IMG/VR virus record: IMGVR_UViG_3300009370_000088 | Coordinates: 1 to 35,332 of that record | Origin: a virus | DNA: 35,332 nucleotides | Direction: 5' to 3' (one strand) | Shown here: positions 822 to 35,063 of the stretch, piece after piece | Layout of the letters: every line of letters starts with the position of its first letter | Position numbering within the stretch: position 1 is the stretch's first letter | Position numbers and translations under genes: made by a program | Notes under the pieces: generated by a model | Database searches by the model: none | What the model saw: only the letters and a program-made list of their open reading frames with translations | Told to the model about the DNA's origin: nothing

Positions 822-982
822 CCGTCCGGTCTCCACTTGGTTTCGTCTTCTCTGGTGTCTGGTCTTTTCTCATAAGTCTGCATGATCGCTCCCGCCTTGA
901 TCGCCTTGCGCTCGGAGCGGAGTCGCCGTAAACGGCGCAAGCGCTCGATGCGCCGGAACAAGCGGTGAAAAGGGTTCTTCAT
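809..982 (-). CDS. 57-aa basic micro-protein
   Basis: This frame starts with ATG in a 4-nt ATGA overlap with the stop of the upstream PD-(D/E)XK nuclease gene, which suggests translational coupling. Residues about 6-30 form a strongly basic helix (RLFRRIERLRRLRRLRSER) that would suit nucleic-acid or acidic-protein binding. The C-terminal half is charged and polar. I recognise no family. The position directly after the nuclease could make it an accessory of that cassette, but the second cassette copy near 29.8 kb has no equivalent. Confidence 0.5.
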   Translation of the reverse strand: MKNPFHRLFRRIERLRRLRRLRSERKAIKAGAIMQTYEKRPDTREDETKWRPDGWNT

Positions 983-1404
983 TCATGGAATCCGCCGTTT
1001 TCATATACGCTCCAGGCGTCCTTCCAGACCTCGTACTTGGCGCGACTGTCGCCGAAGGATGGACTCAGGTAGAGCGATCTCGCGCCCTCCAGGCGCCTTA
1101 TGGGGATGTGGTAGAATACGTCGGCGGGAACGACGTATGCAGCCAATACGTCGACCAAATCGGGATCAAGGGGCGCTTTCGTCTTGCCGCACCCGGCCAG
1201 CAGGCGGTGAGCCTTGCTTCCCTTCGCCCGGTAGCTGGTGCCCTTGACCTGTACCCGAATCTTCGTTCCCTCGCCGTTCACCACCATGACGTCGTAAGGC
1301 AAATAGTCGCCCTCGGGGACCAACACGTCCAAGCCGCGCTTCAGCGCCTCGCTCTTAAAACGCGCCTCGTGGCTGGTTCCCTCGCGCTTTACGTTAATAG
1401 CCAT
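979..1404 (-). CDS. PD-(D/E)XK nuclease (QxK variant), cassette copy A
   Basis: The predicted 141-aa nuclease has an E13 / D38 / Q52-x-K54 catalytic pattern (context VPEGDYLPYDV followed by RVQVKGT). That is the E-D-QxK version of the PD-(D/E)XK fold known from the homing endonuclease I-Ssp6803I and related PDDEXK_5-type proteins. The expected activity is Mg-dependent dsDNA cleavage, but the target is unknown. The ATG at 1404 is chosen because GAGGAGG lies about 5 nt upstream. A longer frame would only add low-complexity residues. The gene overlaps the preceding small-protein gene by 11 nt. It is clearly paralogous to the gene at 29850-30263: both share VPEGDYL-YDV, QVKGT, a VD-LAAYV block and a C-terminal LYP/LYL-type strand. 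It could be a free-standing homing endonuclease, a Holliday or branch nuclease, or an anti-host nuclease. Confidence 0.75.
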   Translation of the reverse strand: MAINVKREGTSHEARFKSEALKRGLDVLVPEGDYLPYDVMVVNGEGTKIRVQVKGTSYRAKGSKAHRLLAGCGKTKAPLDPDLVDVLAAYVVPADVFYHIPIRRLEGARSLYLSPSFGDSRAKYEVWKDAWSVYENGGFHE

Positions 1405-1585
1405 CGTCGTCCTCCTCGTCCCCGATTGGGAAGTCCGCCTCGAACTCGACGTCGGGCGCATCGCAGAAGTCGTTGATTACCGTGCTTATCACTTCCAGTA
1501 CCGCAGTCGGGCCAAGGTCGCTCTCCTCAAGCCAGCGGTTGAGGACGACGTTAAGCTCACGTCGAAGTTGCTCGCGTGGCCCCAT
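1394..1585 (-). CDS. Small acidic partner protein of nuclease cassette A
   Basis: This is a 63-aa protein with a helical N-terminus (REQLRRELNVVLNRWLEESD) and a very acidic tail (GDEEDDDGY). It is paralogous to the protein at 30256-30438 through the shared core LNRW[LV]EESDL and a conserved spacing of acidic residues. Both paralogues lie directly upstream of, and overlap, a paralogous PD-(D/E)XK nuclease gene. The start could be either of two ATGs two codons apart; 1585 gives a 1-nt TGATG overlap with the preceding gene. I infer a cofactor, inhibitor or specificity subunit of the nuclease. It has no recognised domain name. Confidence 0.7.
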   Translation of the reverse strand: MGPREQLRRELNVVLNRWLEESDLGPTAVLEVISTVINDFCDAPDVEFEADFPIGDEEDDDGY

Positions 1586-1791
1586 CACCATTGCCCGAAG
1601 TCCGTTTGCTTGGGAACCCGCCGCGCCTTGCGGGTGCGTACCTTCTTCCCGTTGAAATACTTTACTTGCGTGCTCCCCCAAAAACGAAGTACGGCCAAGT
1701 CGAACTTGCGCTTGTCGAGCACCGTCATCCTCGGGCCGGGACTCCAGGGAACCTCGTCCAGCCTGCGCTTGGCTTCACCCGCGATCCTCAC
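1585..1791 (-). CDS. Hypothetical 68-aa basic protein
   Basis: This small, strongly basic, aromatic-containing protein sits between the methyltransferase and nuclease cassette A. It overlaps the methyltransferase end by 17 nt and abuts the next gene as TGATG, so an internal ATG at 1728 (MTVLDKRKFDL...) is an alternative start. The C-terminal third (KYFNGKKVRTRKARRVPKQT) looks like a nucleic-acid-binding tail. No family is recognised. The tight packing and the plausible composition are the main support. Confidence 0.55.
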   Translation of the reverse strand: MRIAGEAKRRLDEVPWSPGPRMTVLDKRKFDLAVLRFWGSTQVKYFNGKKVRTRKARRVPKQTDFGQW

Positions 1792-3268
1792 GCAAATACT
1801 CCCCCAGAGTCTTAGGATAAGTCGTGCCCACGCCCAGTTCTTCCAGCTCCTCGGGGGTATAAGTCGCTTGCAGGCGCTTCAGGCGCCGCCCGATCCACTC
1901 GGCCACGTTTACGGTGACGGCGTTGCCGCAGGCGCGGTATCTGGGACCGTCCGCCTGCTTGACCACCTTGCCCGTAGCCTTCCATTCGTTGCCTTCGAGT
2001 TCCAGTTCCATCTTCTCCAAGGTCCAGTCGTCGGGGAAGCCTTGAAGGCGTTCGCATTCGCGACAAGTCAGGCGGCGCACGGTGAGGTTGCTCGCCACCC
2101 CCACGCCTTCCCCGCCTTGCTGCGAGCGCAGGGTTACCGAGACGTCCTCGCTCGCCTTGGGGGTGGTGTCTCCGTTCCATGAGCAGACTACATTAGAGGG
2201 GCGACTAGGACGATTCTCACCCTCTGCTCGCAAGCACCCCGAATGCTCGCCTTCCTGCCAATAGCCTTGACCGGTCTCATACATCACCTTCGGCCCGCTC
2301 GCATTTGCTATCCCCGTGGCAGAGGTTACCGTGGCGGCGGTATCGCCCGTCTCCTCGCCGTTGTAGACGTCGCAGCCTTGGGCGATAATTTGTCCGCCTA
2401 CTCCATGATTGCAGTTAAGCGTCGAAGCTTGGTTTACCAATGTTTCGGCGTTAGCTTGGTTTACCAATGTTTCGGCGTTAGCTTGGTCGCTTGCTCGGCA
2501 TATTACGGTCTCGCTGCCCCCGCCTAGGTCTCCTCCTTGACTTCGGAGGGTTCCGACTCCTTCTTCGTATCCGCCGAAGCTACCCGGCGTAAAGCCGCCT
2601 CCAGCATCGGCGGGAGAGTCTTGCCCCGCTTCTCGGCTCGGCGCAGGATGCCGGCGCAGGCGCGACTGCTGAGAGAATATTTCTCCGGCGGCTCCCTCTC
2701 CAAAATGTCCGAAAGTCGCAGATATAAAGACCCGTCGACGTCGCTGGGGAGCGGCTCGCACGACTCGTCCGCAGGGGGAACGCCATCCCACGTGCTGAGT
2801 GTCGAGTACCGTCCATCCGACCTCACTAGCCCCGATGTCGAGTAACTCTCGGATGCACCCCGCAAAATCGAGGCCATTTCCGCTTGAGAAGATTCCGGGC
2901 ACATTCTCAGCCAACGCGAGGAACCTACCTCCGCCAGTTCCTCCTCGCCGAATAGCTCGCTCTGCGAGTCCCTTGATGATTCTGCACGCCTCGAAGAACA
3001 ATCCGCTTCTTTCACCTTCCAATCCTTTCCTTTTGCCGGCTACGCTCAAGTCCTGACAGGGGAAGCCGTACGTTATAAAATCGCAGTCGGGTAAGTCGTC
3101 CGCAGTAACCTTGCTCACGTCGCAGAACAACGGGACGTCCGGCCAACGGCGCTTCAGCACGCCGGCGGCGTTCTTGTCCCACTCCACTTGCGCCACGCAC
3201 TCATGCCCGGCGCGTTCCATTCCTTCGTCAAACCCGCCCACCCCGGCGAATAATGAGATGAATTTCAC
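1775..3268 (-). CDS. C5-cytosine DNA methyltransferase (Dcm-like)
   Basis: This enzyme transfers a methyl group from S-adenosylmethionine to cytosine C5 and probably protects phage DNA from host restriction. The motifs appear in order: I FAGVGGFDEG (7-16), IV GFPCQDLS with catalytic C71, VI ENVPG (121-125), VIII QRRRRVF (175-181), a long variable target-recognition region (about 190-405), IX with RLQGFPDDW, and X GNAVTVNVAEWIG. All key residues are present, so it should be active. The start is GTG in a GTGA overlap with the coiled-coil gene, with GGAGGGG about 6 nt upstream. The 497-aa length exceeds a minimal Dcm because the recognition region is expanded. It contains Gly/Ser/Asn-rich segments and a 9-residue tandem repeat. 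No cognate endonuclease with a restriction-type layout is adjacent, so it is an orphan or anti-restriction enzyme unless the downstream nuclease A is its partner. Confidence 0.92.
   Translation of the reverse strand: MKFISLFAGVGGFDEGMERAGHECVAQVEWDKNAAGVLKRRWPDVPLFCDVSKVTADDLPDCDFITYGFPCQDLSVAGKRKGLEGERSGLFFEACRIIKGLAERAIRRGGTGGGRFLALAENVPGIFSSGNGLDFAGCIRELLDIGASEVGWTVLDTQHVGWRSPCGRVVRAAPQRRRRVFISATFGHFGEGAAGEIFSQQSRLRRHPAPSREAGQDSPADAGGGFTPGSFGGYEEGVGTLRSQGGDLGGGSETVICRASDQANAETLVNQANAETLVNQASTLNCNHGVGGQIIAQGCDVYNGEETGDTAATVTSATGIANASGPKVMYETGQGYWQEGEHSGCLRAEGENRPSRPSNVVCSWNGDTTPKASEDVSVTLRSQQGGEGVGVASNLTVRRLTCRECERLQGFPDDWTLEKMELELEGNEWKATGKVVKQADGPRYRACGNAVTVNVAEWIGRRLKRLQATYTPEELEELGVGTTYPKTLGEYLREDRG
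2426..2479. repeat. 27-bp perfect tandem repeat within the methyltransferase
   Basis: Two identical 27-bp units lie head to tail, followed by the first 8 bases of a third. In the methyltransferase frame each unit encodes nine residues (core NQANAETLV), so expansion or contraction keeps the frame. The repeat falls in the variable region between motifs VIII and IX, where target specificity is set in this family. It probably arose by replication slippage. Confidence 0.95.
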
Positions 3269-5636: not shown

Positions 5637-5654
5637 GTTAGTTAGTTAGTTAGT
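5637..5654. repeat. Tetranucleotide (GTTA/TAAC) microsatellite
   Basis: About 4.5 copies of GTTA (TAAC on the coding strand) span the stop codon of the RuvC-like gene and the gap before the SSB-like gene. Because the unit is four bases, TAA appears in all three frames, so the tract is an all-frame translational stop. Slippage would not alter either protein substantially but would change the spacing between the two genes. Confidence 0.9.
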
Positions 5655-6124
5655 GAAAGATGGTGCCTGAGAATCAATAAAGCGTCACAGGTTTTTAGGG
5701 TGAGTCCCTTTATTCTCGGAAACAGCCGGGAGGCATGGTCTCGCAGGGCTTTCTTTCGAGGTTGGCCCTTCAGACCCTGCAAGCCCGGAAGTCCTTTTTG
5801 CCAAGCTTGCGGGCGGACGAGTTCCATAGGTATCTTGTTGGCTCGAATGGAGCCTCGTATGAACCCGTAACTATCGCCCAATTTGAAAGAGGTGGACGAG
5901 GGAATCATTTTCCCTGCGAAGGGCGGAACGAGTTCCACGACTGCGGTCAGGCTCGAGGCGTCCTCATGATTTGCTAGCCAAGAGAGGTACTCGAGCCACT
6001 CGGTTTCATCGGTCCACGGGTAAAGCTCGACTCGCTCGAGGCCGCCCCATTTTCCCGCCTCTTGCTCGAATGCCACCGCATACCCGCCGCTCATTCCGGG
6101 GTCTACTGCGAGAGTGATCCTCAT
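5642..6124 (-). CDS. RuvC-like Holliday junction resolvase
   Basis: The 160-aa protein has an RNase H-fold nuclease signature: LAVDPGMSGG (D8) on the first strand, AVVELVPPF (E64), and a C-terminal helix with CDALL (D147). Between them is the GFIRGSIRANKIPMELVRP/W segment typical of phage RuvC-like proteins. It should cut four-way junctions or branched DNA before packaging. The start at 6124 is an ATGA overlap with the 50-aa gene. A longer frame would add an unconserved Arg/Gly-rich extension. It lies in one operon with the integrase and the SSB-like protein. The start is less certain than the family. Confidence 0.85.
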   Translation of the reverse strand: MRITLAVDPGMSGGYAVAFEQEAGKWGGLERVELYPWTDETEWLEYLSWLANHEDASSLTAVVELVPPFAGKMIPSSTSFKLGDSYGFIRGSIRANKIPMELVRPQAWQKGLPGLQGLKGQPRKKALRDHASRLFPRIKGLTLKTCDALLILRHHLSLTN

Positions 6125-6273
6125 GCGGCCTTCTCCACCGTCTCCGCGCGAAGCGCCAAGGTTGCCAGTAGTTCCTCCAGCGTGCCTTCCCACTCCCCGC
6201 CCTGAGTGTCCAGAGTAACTTTCCCATCGTCCTCTAGTCGGACGATCAAATTGCCTAAGTGAATTACTTTCAT
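6121..6273 (-). CDS. Hypothetical 50-aa protein between integrase and RuvC
   Basis: This small acidic protein starts in an ATGA overlap with the integrase stop and ends in an ATGA overlap with the RuvC-like start. That double coupling is strong evidence that it is real. It begins with a beta-like segment (KVIHLGNLIVRLEDDGKVTL) and ends in a helix (LEELLATLALRAETVEKAA). No family is recognised. A role as an excisionase is possible from its place next to the integrase, but it lacks the basic winged-helix pattern expected of Xis. Confidence 0.7.
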   Translation of the reverse strand: MKVIHLGNLIVRLEDDGKVTLDTQGGEWEGTLEELLATLALRAETVEKAA

Positions 6274-7295
6274 ACCTCCATGTCGTTTTTATGTTCGATT
6301 AAATCCGCATAGTATTTCTCGGTAGTGGTCACCGAACTATGCCGCAAAGTTTTGCTGGCTGCGAAAATGCCGTGAGTGGTCGCCATCCTCGCTCCCAAGA
6401 TTTTCCGCAGACGGTGGACGGGCTTCCTGTCCTCTATCCCCACTTCCTCCCGAAGGAACCCGACGAACTCCCGCTGGACGAGCTTCGGGCGATTCGCCCC
6501 CTGAACGATAAACTCGTTCGAGTCGTCTCCCTCATAGCTTTTCAAAAGATGGTAGACTCGCTTGGGGATTCCCGTCTTCTGCTTCTTTTTCGATTTCGTC
6601 CGCTCGAGGAAAACGTAGTGGTTGCCGGAAAGCTCGCGGAGGTCGGAAAACTTTGCCCGGAGGATCTCCGAGGATCGAAGACCGCATCCCATAGCCAAGA
6701 GGTAAATCTTGTGGAACTCCGGGTTCTCTTCGGGCAGGGCGTTGCACCGCTCGATTATTCGATCCACCTCCTCGGTGGAAGTGGAGAAAGGTTCGAGGAC
6801 GGCCTGCTTCGGAGTGAAGGCTACGAAATGGGAAAAGGTCGAAGGCGGAATCCCCGCTCTTTCATATATGCGGACGGCGCGCTTGGAAAACATGGCGCGC
6901 GCCAAGCGCAAGACGTGGGGCGATCCGCCCGAACGCTCGTACCGCTCGGGAATCGAATAGCCGTCCTTCAGCGAGTTGAGAACGTTGATCGACTCGTCGT
7001 CGCCGATTCCGACGAAACCTAAAACGGTGTGCAACTGCTGAGAATACGTCAGGTAAGTCTTCGCCTGACCCGCCAGTTCGCCGGCATCGAGAGCTTCCTC
7101 GAGGAGTCCGAGAAGATCGGAAATCCATATGGCTCTCTTCGCTTCCCCCGCGATTGCCTGCTCCACCATTTTCGGGGCTACAAATTGCGCCTGCTCGGCC
7201 GGGACTGAGGCGTGAAGGATAAATTCTACTCCGGAGTGGACGAATCTTATCATGCACTTCCGGCCCTTCGGGGTTACTTGGAAGTTTGGGAGCAT
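6270..7295 (-). CDS. int: Tyrosine recombinase / phage integrase
   Basis: The 341-aa site-specific recombinase has the catalytic set visible in the C-terminal domain: R207 (CGLRSSEIL), a lysine in the KSKKKQK beta-hairpin (about 236), H294 and R297 (HRLRK), H319 (TLRHSS), and the nucleophile Tyr at 328/329 (EKYYADL). An alpha-helical core-binding region precedes it (about 55-150). It should integrate and excise the phage at the attP-like tRNA-Lys fragment that lies about 120 bp upstream of its start. It is the first gene of the leftward operon, with a G-rich ribosome site (AAGGGGGGGAG) before the ATG. Palindromes upstream could carry arm-type sites or an operator. Confidence 0.93.
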   Translation of the reverse strand: MLPNFQVTPKGRKCMIRFVHSGVEFILHASVPAEQAQFVAPKMVEQAIAGEAKRAIWISDLLGLLEEALDAGELAGQAKTYLTYSQQLHTVLGFVGIGDDESINVLNSLKDGYSIPERYERSGGSPHVLRLARAMFSKRAVRIYERAGIPPSTFSHFVAFTPKQAVLEPFSTSTEEVDRIIERCNALPEENPEFHKIYLLAMGCGLRSSEILRAKFSDLRELSGNHYVFLERTKSKKKQKTGIPKRVYHLLKSYEGDDSNEFIVQGANRPKLVQREFVGFLREEVGIEDRKPVHRLRKILGARMATTHGIFAASKTLRHSSVTTTEKYYADLIEHKNDMEV

Positions 7296-7633: not shown

Positions 7634-7822
7634 CTATCGTTTCGACTTTATGAAGCGATTTTTGGGCTTGGCGGCTTCAGTCTTCTTCCGCTCGTCTCGC
7701 GCTTTTTTCTGATCTAGTCGGTCCAGAGCAGCAATAAAGGCATCCCCCTGTTTATCCGACATTTGAGAGAAGATGCCATCGGGGTGACTGAAATTGTAGA
7801 CTTCGGGTTTCTTATCTGGCAT
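7634..7822 (-). CDS. Hypothetical 62-aa basic protein at the end of the structural operon
   Basis: This small lysine-rich protein has a helical middle (SDKQGDAFIAALDRLDQKKARDE) and a basic tail ending FIKSKR. It overlaps the end of the giant polyvalent gene by 11 nt and has a GAGAAAATACGAG-type ribosome site, so it is probably co-translated. No family is recognised. Its place makes a minor virion or packaged DNA-binding protein plausible. Confidence 0.6.
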   Translation of the reverse strand: MPDKKPEVYNFSHPDGIFSQMSDKQGDAFIAALDRLDQKKARDERKKTEAAKPKNRFIKSKR

Positions 7823-10800
7823 CTCGTATTTTCTCCATAGCTTGGTCGTAGGACATATTCAAGGCGTCTGCCTTATCTCCCTTGAGGAAGGACCAAATGT
7901 CCTTTTCAGGATACCAGAGAGTGGCCTGAAGGTCTGCCGGCGTCAAGTCATATCCCTTCTCCCTGAGCTTCGCCAAAGCCTTGTTGAAAGCCTGAACGAT
8001 GACCGTACGTTCCTGTGGGGTAGGAATGTCAATGGGCTTCAGTTTCCCGCTGATGGAAGTGGCTGCATAGGCCCAGTACGGCTTCTCCGCCTGTATCTTA
8101 GCCTTCTCCGCCTCGGCTTTGGAAAGTCGAGCCGAAGCTTGCTTGGTTGGCCTTCCCGCTTTCTTCCTCCCCTGTAAATCCGCCTTGGCTTTCGTAACGC
8201 TTCTCCCCGCTGCCGCAAACCTCCGCTCCCATTCCTTGGACAGTCGCCCCGCCAGCTTGAAGACGGCATCGGCATTCGCAGCACCCTTCTCATGTTCGCC
8301 GAAGAGCCTCTCGAAAGTCTTATCCGAGATTTTGAAATTCATTTTGCCGTCCTTGGCGATTGATCCTGAAATCTTCAAGCCTCTCAGAAACTCAGGAAGC
8401 TCGAAGTCGGTCTTCCGCCTCCCCGTGTTTTTGCGGTGGGAATAAATCAACCTCCCGATTGCTTGTGGAGAAAGGCTGACGTCCACCGACCTACCCGTGA
8501 GCCTGCCGAAGGTCCGCCTCAACCACAGGTCAATGGTTACGGGATCGTAGTTGCCCTTGAGGTTCTGGAAAAAACCTTGTCCAATCTTCGGGCCGAAGAC
8601 TGCGGAACCTTTCACTACGTCGTCCATTCTGCCGTCGATGGCAAACTTCTCGTCGCCAAAGAACTTTTTGCCGAACTGAGTTAACTCTCGGACGGTGTAA
8701 TCTCTGTCGAGGAAACCGTGGAAGTCAGTCATCCCCGATTCCATCTTGTCGAATGCTCGCAAGTTCTTGGTGATGGCCGGAGCCTTGCCCCCGTGATCGA
8801 TTTCGTAGTCGAATTTCCCGTGCTTGGCCTTGTACTCGTATTGGTAGACTGCGGCCTTGGCATTATCGAGGACGCGCATGTTCTGGCTGGTGATTGCCAA
8901 CGCTCCGAGAAATCGGTCTTTCGCTTGTTTGGAAGTTTTGATTTCGGGAAAGATTTCTTCGGCGATGGACATGGCCCTCTCGACGGCAGTCGTGTACCAA
9001 TCGACGGCGCTGCCCGTCCTCTGTAGAGCCGCCTCCCCTTCGCTCGCAACCATGTCAGCCAGCCAATCCAAGGTTTCGGGTCCGTAGTCGTAAGGATCGA
9101 TAGGCTCGCCGTACCGCTCGACGTACTTCTCCTGAAAAAGCTTCGCTACCTCCTCATTGGACGGGGCCTGACCTCGTCGGTATCCTGCGGGGAAGCTTGG
9201 GGAGTCGCCGTCCCCCCAAGAAGAGACGGTATTGGGCGAGGCGTCCTCCGGGGCGGCAGGCATAAAGAGTTTGTCGGTAATCGTGACGTCGCCCTCGTCG
9301 AAGATGACGTAGTTGTAGTCGCCCTTGCCCTTGGCCCGTGACGCTCCTTCCAGGTACTTGATTCCGGGTATGCCTGCTTCGAGGAGGGCGGCGCTTGCGG
9401 CGGGATCGCCTTTGATAACTTGAGATAATCCGAGATAGAGATCAGCACCCTCCTCTTGGTACTTCCAATCCTCGCCTGAAATCCCTGACTCAAACCTATC
9501 TCGGAGAGTTGTCCCATAATGCTCTTGGTCAATTATCTCCTCCAACTTCTCCCTCACCCCCTTGGGTTGCTCGCTCAAGGGCTTATCCCATAGCAGATAC
9601 TCGTTCTCCTTCGGGGCTAGTTTGACTTTGTAGAGACTGCCGGGAGGTCGTTCATAACTAATCTTTGCATCTTTCCATTCGTCAATCCTAGACAAAATCT
9701 TTGGGTCGGAGGTTAGTTTTTTGGCATAATATGCTTTGTTGTGCTTGAACTCTCCTGCCTGCTTTTCACCAATTTCCAAAAACTTAACTGCTTCTAATCC
9801 GACTGGATCAATTTCATCACCCCTTGCGATTATTTTACTACCCTTCTTAATTGTTAGGAGTTCTCCTTGGGACAACTCTTTCCGATAATGCTCCGCCACT
9901 TCCCTCTTCCCCGCAAAGTAAAGCCCATGCCCATAAGCCTGTGCGCCCTCGCCAGAACCGATCTGCGCCGACCGAAAACGACCTAATGGAGCGCCTTCCT
10001 CCGCCTTGAAAGTGTGCGGAGTCCCGTGGTAGGCCGCAGGCATGAACAGCCTGCCGGGGCTTCTGGGGTCATAGGCTCCTCTGGTCTCCCTCGGAGTCCC
10101 TCCCTGCCAGCCCTTGGGCGGGTCTGGGATCTCCCCGGTTCCTACCTTCGGAGTACCCGTCCTCTCGGCATCCTCGTTCCAGATTCTGGCAAATTCGGTT
10201 TCCTCGCGGGGAGTCTTGGCAAATGGAAGTGTCGTCTGTCCCTTCGGATCTTTCTTGAAGATTAGCTCGGGAGGAGTCGAATCCGATGGGGCTTTCTCGG
10301 CAGGCATATAGAGCCTGAGATTCTCGACGGCCTGCGGATTCTTCGGGAGGTCGAGGACGTGGGAGCCGAACTCCCTTGACCTCTCCAATGCGGGAATTTT
10401 CCTTAGATTCTCCCGCCTGACCTTCCCCCCGCCTATCTTCTTTGAAATCTTGTTTGCGATGGAGACGAGTTCGCGGTCATAGAATGCCTTCATTCCCTCG
10501 CCGCCGACCTTCAGGTCGAGGCCCTCTAGGTGGGCAAGGGGCATCTCTTCCCCTTGCTTTTTCTCAAGCTCTATCTTTTCCAAAGCTTTCTGGGCCGGCT
10601 CCTTCCCAATGTGATCCGCCAGCTTTTCCTTTGGGACTTTGGTGGCAAGCGTTCGGTACTCGCCGCCCATTTGATCTACGAGGCGAGCCGTGATTTCGTA
10701 AGTGCCATCGGGTTCGGGAAATACTTCGATGGCGACCACGCGCTGGCTCAAATCATACCTCGCCGCCTGCCCCTCGCCGTCCAGCCATGCGACACGGTCA

Positions 10801-13800
10801 TAGCCGTTTTCGAGGGCTTCGCGGATTACCCGCTTGAGGCCGAGGGCGGGCCAGTTCTTCTTGAACGGGGCGTCTGGGACCAGAGTGGTATCTATGTAGT
10901 CTAGCCCTCCTTGGGCTTCAAGTTCTGCGACAATCTCCCCTCTCCTCCGATTCGCCCTTGGATTAGTTGACCCGTATTTCGCCAAATCTGCAAATTCCTG
11001 TCGCAGGGCATTCTTTTCCCTTTCGCTCAACCGATACCCATCCTTCCGCCCCTTCTGATGCCAGTCGGATTGCAGTTCCTCGATGAACAGAACCTTCTTG
11101 CCGTCCGCATCGATCCGGTCATTCAGGCGAAGGTGGAGGAGGACGTTTCCCTCGTTGAAGTGGGGGTCGTGGTAGACTTTGGATTCGGCTTCGGGTGACG
11201 GGACGTCGCGCCTCCCGGCATAATGCCAATCGGGGGGAGGCAACTTCACCAGCACCTCCCGGTAATTCGTCCCGCCGGGTTCTTGGTATTCGGAGAATTT
11301 AGTCATGGAGGAACTAGGGATAATCCGCCCTCCGGGCAAACGCCCTGATATGCCCCCCAGCACCTTCTCCTCCAGCCGGGGAGCGTTCGCATCGACGAAA
11401 GCATCCACCTCGGCCTTGGTCACGCTCTTGCGGTCCTTCAGCCAATCGATCAGGCCGATCTCGTCGGCGTATGCCCTGGCCCCGGCAGTCTTCCCCAGGG
11501 CCGCCTCGAGTTGGCCGCGACTGAACTTATCTTGCTTGATGCCCGGAAGGACGACGTCGCGGATGTTGTCCGACAGACCGAGGGGGCTTTCGGCAGGCAT
11601 GAACCTGACGTCACGTCTCCTCTCGGACGGTCCCATCGCGCTCATTCTTTCGCTCGGCAGGGGTCTGCCGAACAGCCCGGAGACTCTCCCGAATGCTCGA
11701 TCCTTCGTGAAAAACTGTCCCTCCCCCGCTTGGTCGGAAATCAGCTTTACTCGCTTCGCGTCGAAAATGGCGTAACCGTCCGGAAGCTTGTAGCCGTGCC
11801 ACCCCGCTTCCCGTAGTAAGTTTTCATACGAAAAGACGTCTTCCGGGTTCCTCTCCAATTGGTAAACGACGTCCAGGTCGGGAGACTTCGGATCATCCTT
11901 TCGGATCGAGTCCGCCAGCATGGAAACATGCTCGATGGACGATGGATCGAATATGAACTCGGCGTTGGTCGCGAACTCCAGCGGCTTGACGCCGGGGGCC
12001 GATGCCTTCTGCTCCGCTATGGCGAGCTTTCTGTCGGGAGTGAGTTCTATCGTCCGGCTGGTCGAGTAGCGTTCTTCACCCTGCCGAGTCACTCCCTCGG
12101 CATAGTCGGGTTTCCGAATGGCGTCGAGGATGGCGCCGGGTTTGAATCCCGGTCGCCGGCCCGTACCCAACGGGCCACCGTAGTAAAGTTTTACCGGTAC
12201 GAAAATTCCTTCCTTCTCGACGGCTAATGCGGGACTACCGTTATCCCCTTTAATCCATGCCTGAAAGTTCCCGGCCTTGAAACCGTTTTCAATCCAATCC
12301 TTCCTCGCCCTGGCGATGAGGAGCTTGTCGTCTTGAACGGCTTGCCGGAATTGCCTTCCGTACTTCGACGCCTTCCTCTGCTCGATGCTCTCGGCAGGCA
12401 TGTAGAGTCTGCCGCCCTCCGTAAATTCCCCGCTGACGGGGACTTCGTGGTCGGAGGCCAGCTTGACGTTTTTCCCGTCGAATATGACGAGGCTCGTCTC
12501 CCTCTCGAAAAAGTCGGAGTCGTCGGCGAGACGCTTGGCGTATGCTTCCGGCGAGCCGTCCTCGCCACGGTACTGAGTCTCCCAGATACCGTCGAATCCT
12601 AGCGACTCCAGTTCCTTGGCGAAACTCAAGGCCGGGTCGCCCATGATTCCCTTATAGCTTAAAGTCGGGTCGGCTGCGACCTTTTTGCCCAAGGCCCGTT
12701 CCAGTTGCCGGCGATGACTTGGGTCGGCGGCGTTGAAAATCTTCTTGGCGCGGGTTACGAGGGCAAGAGGCTTTCGGCCTGCCGGAGAATACTCCATCGC
12801 GAACCATTCGTTGCGAGCCAGCCATACCGGCTTTTTCGGATCGAACGTCCAGCGGCCTTCCTCATCCGAAGTCGGTTTGAAGCCTTCGGTTTTTCGACTG
12901 CCTGCGGTGGGAGCTTCCCTGCCGACGTCGCCACCGTGGAAGAATACGAAAGGCTCGAACTTATCCCCGACTTTTACGGCTAGTTCGGGGGTCTGTTTTC
13001 CGCCCTTAGTCACCCACCTCTGGAATCTCGGAGCGGCGAATTTCCGACGCTCGAAATCCAACCTCGCATTCGAGGCGGGCATGAATAATTTCCCCTCGTT
13101 TTCGACGCCTAAGTCTCGGTAGGCTATCCGCTTCTTTTTCGCCATCGCCGCCCGATATGCTTCCGCCTCGGCGGGGCCGATTTTAGTCTTGGCGAGGAGA
13201 GCTTCCTCCTTTGGCGTCAATTTTAAGCTGATATCACCTTCGCCCTGCTTGTCTACTGGAGTTTTACCGGCTAACAGCGACTCCTCCAGGGCGACGTTCA
13301 GGGCATCGTTCATGGAAATTCCACGCTCCTTCGCCACCTCTTTCGCCCTAGCCTTAACTTCGGGGCTGGTTCGCAGTAGGATTTTCTCCGGTCGGCCCTT
13401 TGATTCGGCAGGCATGTAGAGCCTGTCGTGTGGGAGGTAGTTGTACTTGATGTTGTCCCAATTGAACCCGATGCCGACCTTGCCCGTGGGGAGAGGCGCG
13501 GCTAAAGACCCGACGTGATATGAGCGGTAGGAGTCCTGAAGCTTTCCATCCTCCAGCAATTGCCTGAGTTTTGGGTCTCGAATGGACGGGGCGGACTCCT
13601 TATGCCCCATCGCCGCCGTAACGATTTCGTTCTCGTATCTACCTTCCGGATTGATCCTCCCCTCCGGGTCTTCGGAAGCCCTCTCGGCAACCTCTCTAGC
13701 TCTACGAATGAAGGCGTCCGGGTCGCTGATTAAACCTTCCCTCACCAGCACCTCGATGTTGTTTCTGAGGTAGGCTTCGTCTATGGCCTGCAAATACAGG

Positions 13801-27676: not shown

Positions 27677-28723
27677 CTAAACTATCGAACCTAGCGCGCG
27701 GGGGTTTGCCACGCAGAGAGTAAGCATTGCCTCCACGAAGGCTCTTGGGCCTCCGGCGAGGTCGGGCAGGTTCTCGGAAGTGATCGACTCGAGGAACTTC
27801 AGCTGGACGGTATCGTCGCCCGGAATCAAGTAAGCTCGATTCGAGTTAAGCGTGCCTTCGGCGGTATCCGGGGATGATGCGCTGCCATTTACGCGACCTA
27901 GGAATAAATCAGGTATGACCTTGATGAGACCATAGTCACTCACGAACTCCACAACGCTCAGGCGAAGCTTTCCGCCTCCCACGTCCTGCTCGAAGTTGTA
28001 AGCGGCGTTGCTGACCGCAGCCCTCGAGAAGTCGGTGACCGCATTGACGACGGCGGGGCCGCTGAAAAGACGGTAATCGGTCTTCGAGCCACTTGCCTCG
28101 TAAACGGCCTGGATGACGCTGCGGAGGTTGGCCTCGGTGAGAGTCCCTGCCGAGGTGAAGTCGTAACGACTGTTCGTGACCGAACTCATAGTTACCTTCG
28201 CGGCGGAGTTAAAGGTGTTCCCACTTGTTGACGACAACGGCTCCGTCCACGTTCCGAGGCCCGCAAGGGTCGCAGCCGTGCCGGACGCTCCGGCGACTTG
28301 ATCGTTTCCTCCGCCGATTGCCGTCTCGATGTCGCGCTTCAACTCGATAAGGCTTTTGGCCTTGGAGGCGGCGAGGAGATTTTCCCCGGGGGCCACGTCG
28401 ATGAGTTGAGCTTGTCGTGAGACCGCATAAGCCCTGCGGATGGTCTGGACGCGATTGCCGAATCGGACGCGAGCGTTGATCTGGTCCGTGAAGTCCGTAC
28501 TAGCGGCCCCAAATGTAAGATCGAGCGCGTCCTCCACGCCACCAATCTCGGGATCTGAAAGTGTATCCGTGAGCCACTCGTTGAGTACGGCCTTGGGCGC
28601 GGCGCCTTGTTTAAGTGTCGCGTATAAAGGCGTCGTTTGTGGTTCGACCACACGTAAAAGGTTTTCTAGGTTTTCCCTAGCCCCCTGCACGCTGGTTACG
28701 TTGTATGAAGTTGCTACAGCCAC
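27677..28723 (-). CDS. Major capsid protein (SU10/DUF5309-like)
   Basis: The 348-aa shell protein has the layout of the SU10-type (DUF5309) capsid family. TTPLYATLKQGAAPKAVLNEW and LTDTLSDPE open the N-terminal arm. An RVQTIRRAYAVSRQAQ segment, then LIELKRDIETAI for the spine helix, lead to a variable Ser/Thr-rich insertion and a conserved C-terminal RAYLIPGDDTVQLKF strand. It forms the T-number icosahedral HK97-fold shell. The start is GTG, chosen because a near-perfect Shine-Dalgarno (TAGGAGG) lies 9 nt upstream. A terminator follows. No N-terminal cleavage peptide is obvious. Confidence 0.85.
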   Translation of the reverse strand: MAVATSYNVTSVQGARENLENLLRVVEPQTTPLYATLKQGAAPKAVLNEWLTDTLSDPEIGGVEDALDLTFGAASTDFTDQINARVRFGNRVQTIRRAYAVSRQAQLIDVAPGENLLAASKAKSLIELKRDIETAIGGGNDQVAGASGTAATLAGLGTWTEPLSSTSGNTFNSAAKVTMSSVTNSRYDFTSAGTLTEANLRSVIQAVYEASGSKTDYRLFSGPAVVNAVTDFSRAAVSNAAYNFEQDVGGGKLRLSVVEFVSDYGLIKVIPDLFLGRVNGSASSPDTAEGTLNSNRAYLIPGDDTVQLKFLESITSENLPDLAGGPRAFVEAMLTLCVANPRALGSIV

Positions 28724-28756: not shown

Positions 28757-29746
28757 TTAATCCGCTAGATACGCGGTCAACTGATCGACGGTTACGTTGC
28801 TACCTCCGAGGATCGCATCCTTTCGTTTTTTCTGACGTTGCTTCGAGGTTGCCGCCGGGACTGCCGCATCTCCCTCCGAGGTCGGAGGTGGCGACTTGGC
28901 CTTCGCCTTTGTCTTCGGCTTTTGAGCCGCAGCTTGGTCCGCTTTGATTGCCTCGACTCCTCGAGCCAACGTGGCGGCTACGAAATCGGCGTTTGGTAAG
29001 CTTTCCAAAAGAGATGCGTACTGGACTCCGTTCCTAATGCTTACGAAAGTCTCGTACATTTCTCCTTCCTGTTCCACCAACCAAGGAAAGGTGGAGGAGG
29101 TGTCCTCGTCCCATCTCTGCTTCTGTTGGAGAAACTGCGCTCTTTGAGGGATTTTCTCGCTGAGGTAGTCTTCCGCCTGAGTCAGGATGTTACGAATTTC
29201 GTCTCCTTCGTATTCCTTGCCGTCCGCTTCGACGTAGTCCTTTCCAACGTGCATCAATGCCCATCTCTTGGCGGCTAGAGCTTCCTGCCTTAATTTATTA
29301 AGGCTCTGGAAATCCTTAACGTCGTCCAAGTCCGGTTGCCCGGTCGGTTCGGCCTGCGTTTCCACCGGCTGCGACTTGAGGTCGTGAATCTCGGCTTTCA
29401 TGGCTTCCGCCGCCTCTTCGGCTGCTTTCGCCCTAGCAGTCAATTTATTGACTTGCTTCAAAAGCTTCCCCACGGCCTTCGGAGGTTCGTCCTCCACCGC
29501 TTCGGATTCAGCTTCCTCGCTCGCATCGTCTAAATGAGAAAGATCGCTTTCCTGTTCCTCCGCCGCTTCTACGGGTTCGGGTGTCGAGTCCTCCGCCGCC
29601 TCGGTTTCGGTTGGCTCGCTTTCCGGAGATTCTTCCACTCGCTCCGCAAAGGAAGCGGCGAGGTCGTCCACGGTCAGGTTGCCGTCAGGTGTTTCGTCTG
29701 CTCCCGTAATTTCGCCCGGAGCCTCGGCGATAGTATCTTCTGCCAT
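28757..29746 (-). CDS. Capsid scaffolding protein
   Basis: The 329-aa protein lies just upstream of the capsid gene. The N-terminal 90 residues are very acidic and disordered. A coiled coil follows at about 93-122 (GKLLKQVNKLTARAKAAEEA). The middle is helical, and the C-terminus is basic (KQRQKKRKD) before a final hydrophobic helix. Acidic disorder, central coiled coil and a basic capsid-binding tail are the standard features of phage scaffolds. It would assemble with the shell protein and exit before packaging. No protease motif is seen. Confidence 0.8.
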   Translation of the reverse strand: MAEDTIAEAPGEITGADETPDGNLTVDDLAASFAERVEESPESEPTETEAAEDSTPEPVEAAEEQESDLSHLDDASEEAESEAVEDEPPKAVGKLLKQVNKLTARAKAAEEAAEAMKAEIHDLKSQPVETQAEPTGQPDLDDVKDFQSLNKLRQEALAAKRWALMHVGKDYVEADGKEYEGDEIRNILTQAEDYLSEKIPQRAQFLQQKQRWDEDTSSTFPWLVEQEGEMYETFVSIRNGVQYASLLESLPNADFVAATLARGVEAIKADQAAAQKPKTKAKAKSPPPTSEGDAAVPAATSKQRQKKRKDAILGGSNVTVDQLTAYLAD

Positions 29747-29849: not shown

Positions 29850-30263
29850 CTAGCCCAGCAGATGAAATGCATGGCGATATGACTCGAATCTTCCCCTCGA
29901 GTTGGGGTTGGCCGGGTAAAGCTTGATCGAGCTAACGTTGCCGATCTCGGCCCGTGGAATGACGTACCAGCTACGGACGTCGGGGTAGTCGACGTATGCA
30001 GCCAGAAAATCAACCTGGCCCAAAGGCTTTTTCCTCCCCGAACCTCGATTTAGGGTGATGGCCCAACGGTTGCTTGGATCGAGGCTTCGGGTGCCTTTGA
30101 CCTGACAAGTACGGAGCAAGCCTCCCTTCGACTCGACTATTACGTCGTAGCCGAGATAATCGCCTTCGGGAACGGATACGTTGAACCCTCTGTTCAGGCA
30201 CTCGGTCCTGAAGAGAGACTCGTAGTAAGTTCCTCGAACCTTGTTTTCGGCTGGTTCATCCAT
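29850..30263 (-). CDS. PD-(D/E)XK nuclease (QxK variant), cassette copy B
   Basis: The 137-aa nuclease is paralogous to the gene at 979-1404. A conserved Glu in the N-terminal helix (YYESLF), the D of VPEGDYLGYDV and CQVKGT give the E-D-QxK triad. A VDFLAAYV block and a terminal LYP strand also match. Residues around these motifs are conserved while the rest has diverged, so the copies separated long ago but kept the active site. It overlaps the preceding small-protein gene by 8 nt. Its place between portal and scaffold is unusual for a replication enzyme and suits a homing-type insertion or a late packaging-related nuclease. ATG at 30263 is preferred over a longer basic extension. Confidence 0.75.
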   Translation of the reverse strand: MDEPAENKVRGTYYESLFRTECLNRGFNVSVPEGDYLGYDVIVESKGGLLRTCQVKGTRSLDPSNRWAITLNRGSGRKKPLGQVDFLAAYVDYPDVRSWYVIPRAEIGNVSSIKLYPANPNSRGRFESYRHAFHLLG

Positions 30264-30438
30264 CTTCTTTGGGGTCAAAATCCGGGTCGAATCCCAAAAC
30301 CGGCTCTTCCGCCCAACCATCCACGGCTTGGTCGGCGATTTCGTAAATGACGTCCGTGTCGAGGTCGGACTCTTCCACCCAGCGGTTTAATAAAATCCGG
30401 ACTTCCCGCGCCAGTTTTTCATGCGGGGTCAGGGACAT
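30256..30438 (-). CDS. Small acidic partner protein of nuclease cassette B
   Basis: The 60-aa protein begins MSLTPHEKLAREV. It shares LNRWVEESDL and an acidic C-terminal half (FDPDFDPKED) with the cassette A partner at 1394-1585. It overlaps the preceding 73-aa gene by 20 nt and the nuclease by 8 nt. The repeated pairing of the two gene families in the same order indicates that they act together. A helical cofactor or an inhibitor of the nuclease is a reasonable guess. No domain name applies. Confidence 0.7.
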   Translation of the reverse strand: MSLTPHEKLAREVRILLNRWVEESDLDTDVIYEIADQAVDGWAEEPVLGFDPDFDPKEDG

Positions 30439-30640
30439 TCGACAGTTCGTTGAAAGATCGTAAAAGCCTGTCCAGAGCGGCGATTTCGCCACCCAATCGA
30501 GCGAGGCGTTGGGGGTTGTCCAGAAGCTCGTAGTCCTGAAAATCGGACAGGGCCGAGTCGCGTTCGGTCTCGAGGTGTCCCAACACGGCCTCCCATGCAG
30601 GCAACCCGGACAGGTGGGGTATGGCTTCCCGAAGAGTCAT
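30419..30640 (-). CDS. Hypothetical 73-aa helical protein downstream of portal
   Basis: This is a small helical protein with two likely amphipathic helices (AWEAVLGHLETERDSALSDF and LGGEIAALDRLLRSF). It starts in an ATGA overlap with the portal stop. Small proteins of this kind, with an HLE-ERD...LGG-IAALRxLL-like pattern, often follow portal genes in podovirus-like phages. Probably a minor head protein. Function unknown. Confidence 0.65.
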   Translation of the reverse strand: MTLREAIPHLSGLPAWEAVLGHLETERDSALSDFQDYELLDNPQRLARLGGEIAALDRLLRSFNELSNVPDPA

Positions 30641-32691
30641 GCCGCGCTGGCGGGGACGTTTCCGGGGGCGGCGCCTAACTGACCGATCAAAGCGTTGCGT
30701 TGTTGCTGCTGCTGAAATTCCAACTGCTGGACGTAGCCCTGAAGTCGGGCTGCAAACTTCTCATCCTGCTGGAGTCTGGACTGAACGTCCTCGGCGGGGA
30801 TCTCCTCGGTGCCTTGGACGTATTGCTGGATGACCTGAAGCCTCAACTGCGAGTTCGACTCTTTCGGAGCGTTCACGACCTGACCGGAGTAAATCTTCGC
30901 CAAGTCCTGCGAGGTCTCTATGATTTCCTTCGAGGTCGCCTCCTGTTGAGGCATGATGAGCTTGCTCGCCAAGTTCGGATCAACTGCCTCGAGAAAGGTC
31001 CGCAAGAACTGATCGTAGCGGGCCTGGCCTTGCCGATCATACTGGGCTAAAATGGTGCCAACGGTCTCCAGCTTCTTCAACACCTTCTCCTCATCGGCGT
31101 TCTGGCTGTTCCACGCTAGGTTGAAGTCGTAGACGTCGGAGGTCTCGTCGAGCAGTAATTGAACTCCCTGCTCGTTGCCGCTGACTCGAAACCAGATTTC
31201 GGGTCCGCCGTACATCCGCTCGAGCGACCATACTTGGCTCAAGACTTGTTTCCACCCGTCCAGCCAGACGTTCACCAGATTCTGCCTGACGATTCCCGCA
31301 TCCACCGCATTTTCGGGATCGGTTGCCCTGCCCGTCATGCGATCAGCCAAGGCTCGAAGCTCCAGTTCGACTCCCATGCTGGCGGGGGATTGGCGAGGGA
31401 TCTCCATGTAGCCGACCTCTCCTCTTCTACGCACGGGAACCTGCGCTCCCGGCCCAAGCTTCTCGGGTCGCCTCCCGACCATGTATTCGACAGGGGGAAC
31501 GGTGGACAGGCTGGCCCGATCCCTTCGAGCGTCCATTTCGGCCTTAACGGCATCTTGGTAAGATTTGAGCAAGTAGGGATAGCCTCGAGTGTCGAGGAGC
31601 CTGCGGGACAAGTGTTCTCTGGTGATTGCCACGAAAGGATAATGACCGGGATCGTATTGACTTGGACCATGCTTCCCGTAGCCGTCCACTCCTGGGCAAA
31701 ATACGGTAGTCGAGCAAATGGGAACCCCGTCCTCGTCCAACTCCTTTCGATAAGCCGTGATCACCTGCGTCAATCCCTCGAAGGACTCACGCATTGGTTC
31801 CTCTAGGTCGTAGCGGTTCGACAGGTCGAGCGGCTGATTGGCCTTCTCGACGCAAGCGTCCACGAAGTCGTCGTCCCAGCCCTCGGTAAAGACTTTCTCT
31901 CGAAGGGCTTCCGGGCTGTAGTAATGCACGCAATAAATCGCTCTCGCCGACTGAAGATCCAAGACGTTCGAGTCGAGGATTACGTCCCGTCCGAGTTCAT
32001 AGGCCCGAACGGCGGGGCGGTTCATGGTAACTTTTTCCTGCGGAACGTCGGCAACGCCTTCCTCCCGCAACGCCTTTAGCATCTTGTTGAGGCGCTTCTT
32101 CTTCAGGTTCGGGAACACTCCCGCCAGTACGTCGATCACGCCTTCCTTCAAATCCGGGTCTTGGATGGCGGTAGCCAGTTCGGGCGACTGAGAGGCTATA
32201 TCCTCCAAGCTGATCGGCTGGTAAGTCCTCCGAACTTCACGCTTCCAATAAACCCCCAAGACGCAAAGTCCCTGCTCGAGCAAATAGTTGGCTGCGACTC
32301 CCGCCTCCCGCTGCAATTCAATCATGGAGTCCATCCTCCACCGCATGAAGTCAGTTACCGTCTTGGCAGTAGAAATGTCCCCGCTTTCCACGGGAGCGGC
32401 AATCAGGTTGGCCTTGTTCAGGCTGCTTTTGAGGAGGGCCACGTCGCCGTCGATCAATGGAGATACGAGGTTAGGCTCCAGGTCGGAGGCGCCGTCCCAA
32501 GGAAAAGCCTCGGGGCCGGACTTCCTGCCCTCCCTCGTCTTTCCGGGCCATTCGTTTCGGCGAACGTCCCTCGCTTCCTCCGCCAAATCCAGCCAGAAAC
32601 CCAGGTTGTTCCTACAGCGTTGGAAGTCGTGAACGAGGTCGTCCACGTTCGGTTCGTCCATATCGAATTTCTGTACCTTTTCTTCGTCCAT
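30637..32691 (-). CDS. Portal protein
   Basis: The 684-aa protein lies between packaging and scaffold genes. The N-terminal part is helical, with an FPWDGASDLEPNLVSPLIDG segment characteristic of short-tailed-phage portals. A central wing region and a stem/crown helix (VNVWLDGWKQVLSQVWSL) follow, with an extended Gln-rich helical C-terminus (about 640-680, QQLEFQQQQQR) that may form the portal barrel. Twelve copies should form the DNA entry ring, bound by terminase and later by the adaptor. The ATG has AGGGGG about 6 nt upstream. Length is in the usual 600-750 range. Confidence 0.85.
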   Translation of the reverse strand: MDEEKVQKFDMDEPNVDDLVHDFQRCRNNLGFWLDLAEEARDVRRNEWPGKTREGRKSGPEAFPWDGASDLEPNLVSPLIDGDVALLKSSLNKANLIAAPVESGDISTAKTVTDFMRWRMDSMIELQREAGVAANYLLEQGLCVLGVYWKREVRRTYQPISLEDIASQSPELATAIQDPDLKEGVIDVLAGVFPNLKKKRLNKMLKALREEGVADVPQEKVTMNRPAVRAYELGRDVILDSNVLDLQSARAIYCVHYYSPEALREKVFTEGWDDDFVDACVEKANQPLDLSNRYDLEEPMRESFEGLTQVITAYRKELDEDGVPICSTTVFCPGVDGYGKHGPSQYDPGHYPFVAITREHLSRRLLDTRGYPYLLKSYQDAVKAEMDARRDRASLSTVPPVEYMVGRRPEKLGPGAQVPVRRRGEVGYMEIPRQSPASMGVELELRALADRMTGRATDPENAVDAGIVRQNLVNVWLDGWKQVLSQVWSLERMYGGPEIWFRVSGNEQGVQLLLDETSDVYDFNLAWNSQNADEEKVLKKLETVGTILAQYDRQGQARYDQFLRTFLEAVDPNLASKLIMPQQEATSKEIIETSQDLAKIYSGQVVNAPKESNSQLRLQVIQQYVQGTEEIPAEDVQSRLQQDEKFAARLQGYVQQLEFQQQQQRNALIGQLGAAPGNVPASAA

Positions 32692-33452: not shown

Positions 33453-35063
33453 TCAATAGCCGCCCGTCCCGGTTGCGACGAAAGACGTCTCGTCCAGGTG
33501 TTCGTAATTACCCACCGCAAAGTAGCGGCAGCAATCGACCAAGTCCTTGGCCGGGTGCTTCAAGTCGCCCGTCTCGTATTCCTGCATACAGGCTACGAGG
33601 TTCTGACATTCACTCGAAAACATGAGCTTGGGGTGGTTTTCGAGGCCCATAGGCTCGGAAGGATTCCATGCCAACAGGTTGTTTATGGCCTGAAGACCCG
33701 TGTCGATGTCCAAGGCTTCCGCAGGGTAGACGACCACGTCTTCGTCCGCGAGGTCGTCGATGATGTTGCTGCTGCCCTCGGCCTTCTGATAGGAAGCCGC
33801 TCCCAATCGAGGGTCGATTATCCGCAGGCAATCCCTGCCTTTCTCGAGGCGGCGGATGACTTCCACGTAGTCCAGAATGCCGTAACCGTTCGGTTGAGCC
33901 GCCTCACCGGGTCGCCCCTTGTCCCCCTTGCTCATGTCCATCCACGGGCCGAAGGTATCGAAGTCGGGGAACTCCGAGACTGCCCAAGCGACCCCGTGAG
34001 CGTCGATGCCGAACAAGACCATCGTCCACGGCTTCGCCCCGGCGGGGTCGATGCTCAATATCCACGTGGCGGGGTTTTGCTTCGGATCGGTCAGGATAGG
34101 TACGTCGGAAGGATCGACCAAGTTCCGGTCGCCAAGCTGCGGAAATACCGTTTTCGAGGCTTTGGTCGGCACCCCGTAACCTCGGCAAAGAATAACGTCG
34201 CGCTTCTCCCCCTCCAGTTGACGCCGCATCGCCTCGTAGCCGCCGAACGGGTTTTCGGCGATGTGGAAGTAGACGACACTCGAGGCTTTGCGAAGGGGTT
34301 GCTGGACGAGGGGAACCCGTTCGCCACCCAATAACTCGGCAGGCGTGTCCTCCACCGTTCGGGCGCCGGTGAGGAGAGACTTTACCACCGGGTTCCAGCC
34401 GTCCACCGCAGTAAAGGTAATTATGCCCTTGGCGGACCTCGTCAAATTTCTGTACCGGATGGTCTCCAACCACGGGAGCGGAATTAGCTCGTCGGCCCAG
34501 AAGCCTATATTGTGGGTTCCCTTGGCTGGGGCGGCGGGTGACCCTATCTCGCCTCCCTCGATGGTCGAGATGTCCTGAGACCAGTTTCGGAATATCGCCT
34601 CGCTTTTGTTCGGCAGGCTGAACTTCGAGGCCGTGAATCCGTTTCTTAAACTATATACGACGTATCCGACTTTTCCGCGCCCTAAGCTTTTAAACTCTTT
34701 CGGCAAATACTTAAAAACGAGTTTCTGTTGGAACTGTATACTGTTTGCGCTCGTTTCAGTTAAACACCATATGATCGTTCCGGGGTTTTCGACCAGACAT
34801 TGCACAACCCGTTTCGCAGCCCATTCGGATTTGCCGGCTCGGTTCGATCCCATTACGAGGATCTCCTCATGCGAGGACAACTGCTCGTCGGCCCTCGCCC
34901 AGGTCGATAGCTCGAACCCATGCCTGAACGGATCGTCCTTCTCGTTCTCGATGGCCTTCTCGCGGGTGTTGAAATAGTCGAAGACCTTTTCCGCAGGCAG
35001 GGACTTCATTTCGCTCTCGGTGAGAGGCGGTAGGGCGGGATGCGGTGTCCACTTCAGAGCCAT
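33453..35063 (-). CDS. terL: Terminase large subunit
   Basis: The 536-aa packaging motor-nuclease has Walker A G72-SNRAGK-S79, Walker B/catalytic Glu at ADE (D191, E192), and an RNase H-like nuclease with IDP (D339), IID (D417) and a C-terminal DLVD acidic site. It cuts concatemers and pumps DNA into the prohead with the portal encoded downstream. The ATG at 35063 sits 8 nt after a TATAAT, so an mRNA from that promoter would be leaderless. An internal ATG at residue 19 is an alternative start. No terS gene is seen upstream within the window; small HTH genes lie downstream. Confidence 0.9.
   Translation of the reverse strand: MALKWTPHPALPPLTESEMKSLPAEKVFDYFNTREKAIENEKDDPFRHGFELSTWARADEQLSSHEEILVMGSNRAGKSEWAAKRVVQCLVENPGTIIWCLTETSANSIQFQQKLVFKYLPKEFKSLGRGKVGYVVYSLRNGFTASKFSLPNKSEAIFRNWSQDISTIEGGEIGSPAAPAKGTHNIGFWADELIPLPWLETIRYRNLTRSAKGIITFTAVDGWNPVVKSLLTGARTVEDTPAELLGGERVPLVQQPLRKASSVVYFHIAENPFGGYEAMRRQLEGEKRDVILCRGYGVPTKASKTVFPQLGDRNLVDPSDVPILTDPKQNPATWILSIDPAGAKPWTMVLFGIDAHGVAWAVSEFPDFDTFGPWMDMSKGDKGRPGEAAQPNGYGILDYVEVIRRLEKGRDCLRIIDPRLGAASYQKAEGSSNIIDDLADEDVVVYPAEALDIDTGLQAINNLLAWNPSEPMGLENHPKLMFSSECQNLVACMQEYETGDLKHPAKDLVDCCRYFAVGNYEHLDETSFVATGTGGY

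Follow-up and report, generated by a model that had tools for sequence, protein, structure and literature searches.

A PD-(D/E)XK nuclease gene exchanged at a fixed seat behind a small acidic protein gene in phage head operons

Why does one phage contig carry the same kind of gene pair, a small acidic protein followed by a nuclease, near both of its ends? The question is raised by IMG/VR virus record IMGVR_UViG_3300009370_000088, whose 35,332 bases were analysed as a whole and are called the window here. Pairs A and B (Table 1) lie at opposite ends of this marine phage contig, both on the minus strand. In each pair the small gene comes first and the reading frames overlap, by 11 bases in pair A and by 8 bases in pair B. 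Identity is 41% between the nucleases (131 positions, E 4e-22) and 37% between the small proteins (54 positions, E 3e-14); this likeness is therefore not due to chance. The original prediction, made from the window alone, that the same two families recur in the same order with the same type of overlap is borne out by these coordinates and identities, and the LNRW[LV]EESDL motif is kept in the small proteins as stated there.

Table 1. Features of the two gene pairs and their surroundings in the window.
Feature	Position	Strand	Description
Nuclease A	979..1404	-	141 aa; PDDEXK_5; E13-D38-Q52-K54
Small acidic protein A	1394..1591	-	65 aa; other possible ATG at 1585
68-aa ORF	1585..1791	-	between methyltransferase and small protein A
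C5 DNA methyltransferase	1775..3268	-	upstream of pair A; Pfam DNA_methylase, 168.6 bits
Major head protein	27677..28723	-	phrog_1328, E 4e-34
Scaffold-like protein	28757..29746	-	downstream of nuclease B; named from place before major head protein and composition
Nuclease B	29850..30263	-	137 aa; PDDEXK_5
Small acidic protein B	30256..30438	-	60 aa; counterpart at same seat in relatives
73-aa ORF	30419..30640	-	between portal and small protein B; kept in relatives
Portal protein	30637..32691	-	named from homology and place
Terminase large subunit	33453..35063	-	Walker-A-like motif GSNRAGKS (by eye) and place

The portal of the window has relatives that are 34-70% identical, and three distant matches (21%) are annotated 'portal protein'. 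A homologue of the window terminase precedes the portal in relatives. No family match was found for the scaffold-like protein, and no Rfam family was found in the window at gathering score. The 68-aa ORF gave a weak two-motif match (E 2.6e-4, one-sequence search) to the gene at the same place in methyltransferase-context relatives, which was not significant in a wider search. A short tandem direct repeat lies within the methyltransferase frame (2409-2490), and a single 2839-aa ORF (7812-16331) takes up almost 1/4 of the contig. Given an integrase-like protein (6270-7295; phrog_1, E 8e-17), the phage may be temperate.

Both nucleases matched Pfam PF11645 (PDDEXK_5) when the longer frames were searched, with 49.3 bits for nuclease A and 40.1 bits for nuclease B (cut-off 26.1). 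Residues E13, D38, Q52, and K54 are present in both copies; in an alignment of 22 sequences, the first three are invariant and K54 is kept in at least 90%. These columns align with the catalytic columns of I-Ssp6803I (PDB 2ost), a PD-(D/E)XK enzyme of a cyanobacterial group I intron, which has the same fold, size, and E-D-QxK arrangement. We take the catalytic residues of I-Ssp6803I to be E11/D36/Q49/K51, and the Q at the first catalytic position of the 2ost crystal chain is presumably an inactivating mutation. The 22-sequence profile found chain 2ost among PDB chains with E 4e-16, the next chain having 0.59, and nuclease B alone matched it in phmmer (E 2.9e-5). An AF2 model of nuclease A (pLDDT 84, pTM 0.82) placed E13 in helix 1, D38 immediately before a strand, and Q52 and K54 in the next strand, which is the residue order of the PD-(D/E)XK core. 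The top fold match of this model was again 2ost (Z 18.2, rmsd 2.7, 138 aligned, 22% identity in the structural alignment), followed by archaeal Holliday-junction resolvases with Z 11.4 or less. The PADLOC 'HEase' model matches 18 of the 22 sequences. The predicted QxK PD-(D/E)XK nuclease of the I-Ssp6803I kind is thus supported by residue columns, family, and fold, and on its fold and active-site residues the protein is very probably a DNA nuclease. The nuclease is under purifying selection: six of seven comparisons gave dN/dS values of 0.04-0.20, and the seventh, where changes are few, gave 0.44.

Relatives were sampled in several ways. A portal-based search, which selects by neither gene of the pair, gave 294 relatives, and the best 80 were taken; ten of these loci stop short of the small gene and three stop at it, so that 67 are readable. 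The order at this seat is portal, 73-aa protein, small protein, nuclease, and scaffold. The nuclease lies directly behind the small gene in 65 of the 67 readable loci (best 80 of 294), the two others being the related loci L206 and L219. In the nuclease-based sample (best 80 of 211, rich in near copies), the small gene is present in 79 of 80 loci, and the exception follows a DNA polymerase. The same pair therefore occurs in other phages, as a check proposed with the original prediction was meant to establish. Orthologues of nuclease B hold the same seat in L003 and L004. The nuclease ORF sits between conserved genes, outside any recognised intron or intein.

The seat without the nuclease was found only in the more distant L027/L029, L063, and L083, as well as in L206/L219. 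In L083 (5165-6631), the place of the nuclease is taken by two genes on the reverse strand whose starts look signal-peptide-like by eye, showing that this seat takes other cargo. In L219 (7748-9896), MerR-like and RuvC-like resolvase genes and further early-type genes replace the nuclease (names by eye). All of 18 long records contain a single small gene and all but one a single nuclease; one of these 17 nucleases is split over two frames and another contains an internal TAG. The split gene (L270, record G043:5865-6277), whose intact near relative is L256, reflects either decay or an assembly error. No second pair was found in the 18 long records, and the window is therefore unusual among them.

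Distance correlations were computed over loci whose portals have at least 600 aa (68, dereplicated to 36 lineages). Nuclease distances follow portal distances with r 0.78 and small-protein distances with r 0.82, and much is therefore inherited together. With the portal taken out, a residual correlation of 0.25 remains between small protein and nuclease (0/2000 permutations, the permutation ignoring relatedness). Co-inheritance had been claimed from the high divergence of the two pairs; that inference does not follow, and co-inheritance itself, once tested, holds partly, at the portal seat.

Exchange of the nuclease was observed between close relatives. Portals are over 93% identical in 185 locus pairs, which are not independent of each other because loci recur among them; in these pairs, the nuclease falls under 70% identity in 70 and the small protein in only 6. 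The small protein stays at 85% or more in 29 of the 70 swap pairs, and swapped nuclease alleles are 55-65% identical between near-identical phages. For example, L239 and L240 share 99% identity in the portal, 93% in the small protein, and 56% in the nuclease, and L266 carries the nuclease of L240 at 98% on another background (portal 95%). In 31 independent pairs, formed from 68 loci with every locus used once, synonymous third-position identity of the nuclease is below that of the portal in 24 (p 0.0033); it is below that of the scaffold in 23 of 28 pairs (p 0.0009). DNA profiles of L243/L240, L246/L266, and L255/L262 show an island of divergence at the nuclease ORF, with conserved DNA on either side: identity drops from ~80-100% to ~35-75% around the tail of the small gene, and is back to 87-100% in the last ~45 bases of the nuclease. 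The swapped stretch includes the acidic tail of the small protein because the genes overlap, and the small proteins of L246 and L266 differ only in this tail. The L240/L239 profile has no right flank, as L239 ends there, and the edges are less sharp in L253/L246. In AU tests, whose p values are optimistic here and below because most clades were named after viewing trees or identities, the nuclease data reject the portal clade L239-L240-L241-L243 (p 0.00018), and the portal data reject the nuclease clade L240-L241-L266 (p 0.006). Duplicates and repeat loci (L001, L002, L008-L011, and L090) were left out of the trees. One gene is exchanged at a fixed place, with its flanks kept.

The small protein is predicted to be a two-helix hairpin with an acidic tail, the AF2 model of copy A (pLDDT 86) having helices at 5-23 and 28-44. 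No convincing Pfam or PHROG family was found for copy A, no PDB fold match had E under 0.001, and the best profile match in the PDB had E 0.04. Four queries found no small protein in 50,697 records of named phages. A 64-aa acidic ORF in L006/L007 (L006:4682-4876), which follows a basic HNH-like ORF and resembles the small protein by eye, was tried as a distant homologue and not accepted (E 0.4). A small-protein scan with RWxEESD[LM] and a second motif gave 152 relatives, of which the best 80 were taken; the conservation of both motifs among these loci is partly selection, because they were the search query. The nuclease is directly behind the small gene in 14 of the 80 (best 80 of 152, as for all counts of this sample). 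Four others are portal-scaffold seats without the nuclease (L027, L029, L063, and L083). Ten small genes come after a short FW-motif gene and/or a methyltransferase, or before a window-type terminase, and two are near a methyltransferase only. The remaining 50 lie upstream of a second-type terminase, none with an adjoining nuclease. Terminase and portal names in these loci rest on homology and place. The small protein is common to the packaging modules of three phage groups, and these contexts therefore assign it to packaging or head modules, with no need of the nuclease.

These results bear on whether the small protein acts as a cognate inhibitor of the nuclease, a DNA mimic or immunity protein whose overlapping gene is translated first. 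Gene order, overlap, the acidic hairpin, the residual correlation of 0.25, and the presence of two such pairs in the window would fit this explanation. However, the small gene has no adjoining nuclease in 66 of the 80 small-selected loci (best 80 of 152), its sequence features are the same with and without the nuclease beside it, and it does not swap along when the nuclease of near-related phages changes, even the L246/L266 difference being confined to the tail. The obligate linkage and co-variation of toxin-antitoxin or nuclease-inhibitor systems were not found for it. The original prediction had itself named small proteins unlinked to nucleases in most genomes as grounds against the pairing, and this is what the 66 loci show. 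A dedicated partner or inhibitor is thus not supported by the distribution, and we regard this explanation as decidedly improbable.

The two pairs had also been described as a duplicated cassette, which was not shown. A recent A-B duplication was rejected, since the AU test does not allow nuclease A to group with nuclease B and the closest kin of B (p 0.0027); nuclease A is therefore no recent copy of B. Its placement with the L015 group is not rejected (p 0.35). For small protein A, both the portal-seat group (p 0.45) and the terminase group (p 0.37) are unrejected. Two further groupings were tried and rejected: a single origin of all small-adjacent nucleases (p 0.00018), and the nuclease of L092 with those of L022/L025, as grouped by portals (p 0.0035). 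Pair A follows the methyltransferase gene, which is the place of the small gene in relatives of another portal type. In L116, the one record of that portal type that was read on, no small gene was found in the portal-scaffold gap. Either a resident small gene gained its own nuclease, or the pair moved in from elsewhere.

The nuclease family also occurs outside the portal seat. It lies beside a DNA polymerase in L005 and beside a primase/helicase-like gene (named by eye) in L118-L120. The PHROG 5018 nucleases of Bruynoghevirus (Pseudomonas phages) belong to the same PHROG, are 34-36% identical, and stand beside a split DNA polymerase gene; unlike in the window pairs, no small protein was found with them. 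Members on the opposite strand were seen in L077, L078, L079, L085, and L088, about 1-4 kb from the small gene, and those of L078 and L088 are behind a 170-aa terminase-small-like gene (by eye). In L050 (2623-3069) and L078 (5579-6025), a 148-aa protein encoded two or three genes further on from the small gene has what looks by eye like a D...ExK motif and is possibly another nuclease.

The exchange with kept flanks, the other positions beside conserved genes, the homing-type fold, and the absence of a recognised intron make a homing-type nuclease the best reading. It is moderately probable that this is a free-standing homing-type PD-(D/E)XK nuclease at a fixed seat, for which the small protein is the landing neighbour and not an immunity protein. 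Because the genes overlap, the two proteins are probably translated from one message. In a mixed infection, the nuclease would probably cut, at or near the seat, the DNA of relatives with a different allele; the cut allele would then be replaced through repair from the genome of the cutter, and the flanking genes would stay. The small protein would be the seat, with its own job in packaging or head assembly, and pair A would be a second nuclease behind a second small gene, beside the methyltransferase. The cutting, the target, and the gain from co-infection are the parts of this mechanism that we infer. Of the functions originally proposed, homing and inter-phage exclusion are still the best readings, and the inhibitor pair is not.

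Several findings speak against the homing reading. A purely selfish gene should be spread sporadically, whereas this one is near fixed (65/67, best 80 of 294) and follows the portal with r 0.78; the residual correlation of 0.25 also has to be accounted for, as does the inclusion of the small protein's acidic tail in the swapped stretch, and two pairs in one genome would be a coincidence. Near fixation and the low dN/dS (0.04-0.20 in 6/7 comparisons) suggest that the nuclease also pays its phage, e.g. by marker exclusion or interference. A stronger version is rather unlikely: the seat may be a polymorphic weapon locus, where almost every phage of the group has one of many old alleles that differ in specificity, where each allele, on co-infection, cuts carriers of other alleles and so fixes its own head-gene neighbourhood, and where the acidic tail of the conserved small protein tunes whichever nuclease allele follows it. 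If true, a homing enzyme would here have given rise to a system of alleles that is mating-type-like or colicin-like.

A comparably low probability is given to a domesticated late nuclease, which would aid packaging or clear branched DNA first, with the small protein as adaptor to the portal or terminase. This is modelled on the proposal in PMC10448857 for the HNH protein beside the HK97 terminase. It would account for the near-constant seat between portal and scaffold (65/67, best 80 of 294), the small protein in packaging modules of three phage groups, the purifying selection, and the resolvases as second-best folds. However, alleles of 55-65% identity swap between near-identical phages, seats without the nuclease exist (L027, L029, L063, L083, L206, and L219), the family also lies beside replication genes, and the window has a second resolvase-like gene (5642-6193, phrog_1770).

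An exclusion or defence nuclease directed against unrelated superinfecting phages or satellites, with an arms race in place of homing, would agree with old, swapping alleles under purifying selection, and a table in PMC10952713 includes PF11645 among defence-system nucleases. Such a nuclease would be expected as an early or lysogenic gene, not in the head operon, and its nearest structure is a homing enzyme. We consider it very unlikely.

The homing-type nuclease can be compared with known systems. The best-studied free-standing homing nucleases of phages are the GIY-YIG and HNH enzymes of T4-like phages. Like the seg, mob, and hef genes of those phages, the window nucleases are small genes between essential genes that replace each other at one site. 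They differ in being PD-(D/E)XK enzymes, in being nearly fixed, and in that the genes exchanged are alleles of a single family. They also differ from I-Ssp6803I, which is intron-borne, in being free-standing behind an overlapping gene, with no recognised intron. Likewise, the HK97 nuclease beside the terminase is part of a packaging module, but it is HNH and not PD-(D/E)XK. To our knowledge, no allele swapping has been described for it. Interference of the kind suggested above is described for another phage in PMC11620839. That phage is presumably a jumbo phage. For T4-like phages, PMC2988022 cites work on Hef/SegH replacing mobE/mobC and describes marker exclusion in T4; the free-standing enzymes listed there are GIY-YIG or HNH. 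The HK97 HNH nuclease works with the terminase, and the survey in PMC10448857 reports homing-type nuclease genes close to those for terminase, capsid, and replication, with HK97 as a counter-example. PD-(D/E)xK homing enzymes are reviewed in PMC3943268, and LUZ24 has an intron-borne nuclease (PMC6083498). A limited literature search found no printed account of a free-standing PDDEXK homing endonuclease.

In summary, a nuclease of the PD-(D/E)XK type holds one head-operon seat in most of the members sampled from a marine phage group, and the replacement of one allele by another has left direct traces at this seat. The analysis also brings out a family of small proteins that is common to the packaging modules of three phage groups and has no convincing match in Pfam or PHROG. 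These loci form a natural data set for asking whether it is homing that keeps such nucleases in place or the help they give their phage in beating its relatives.
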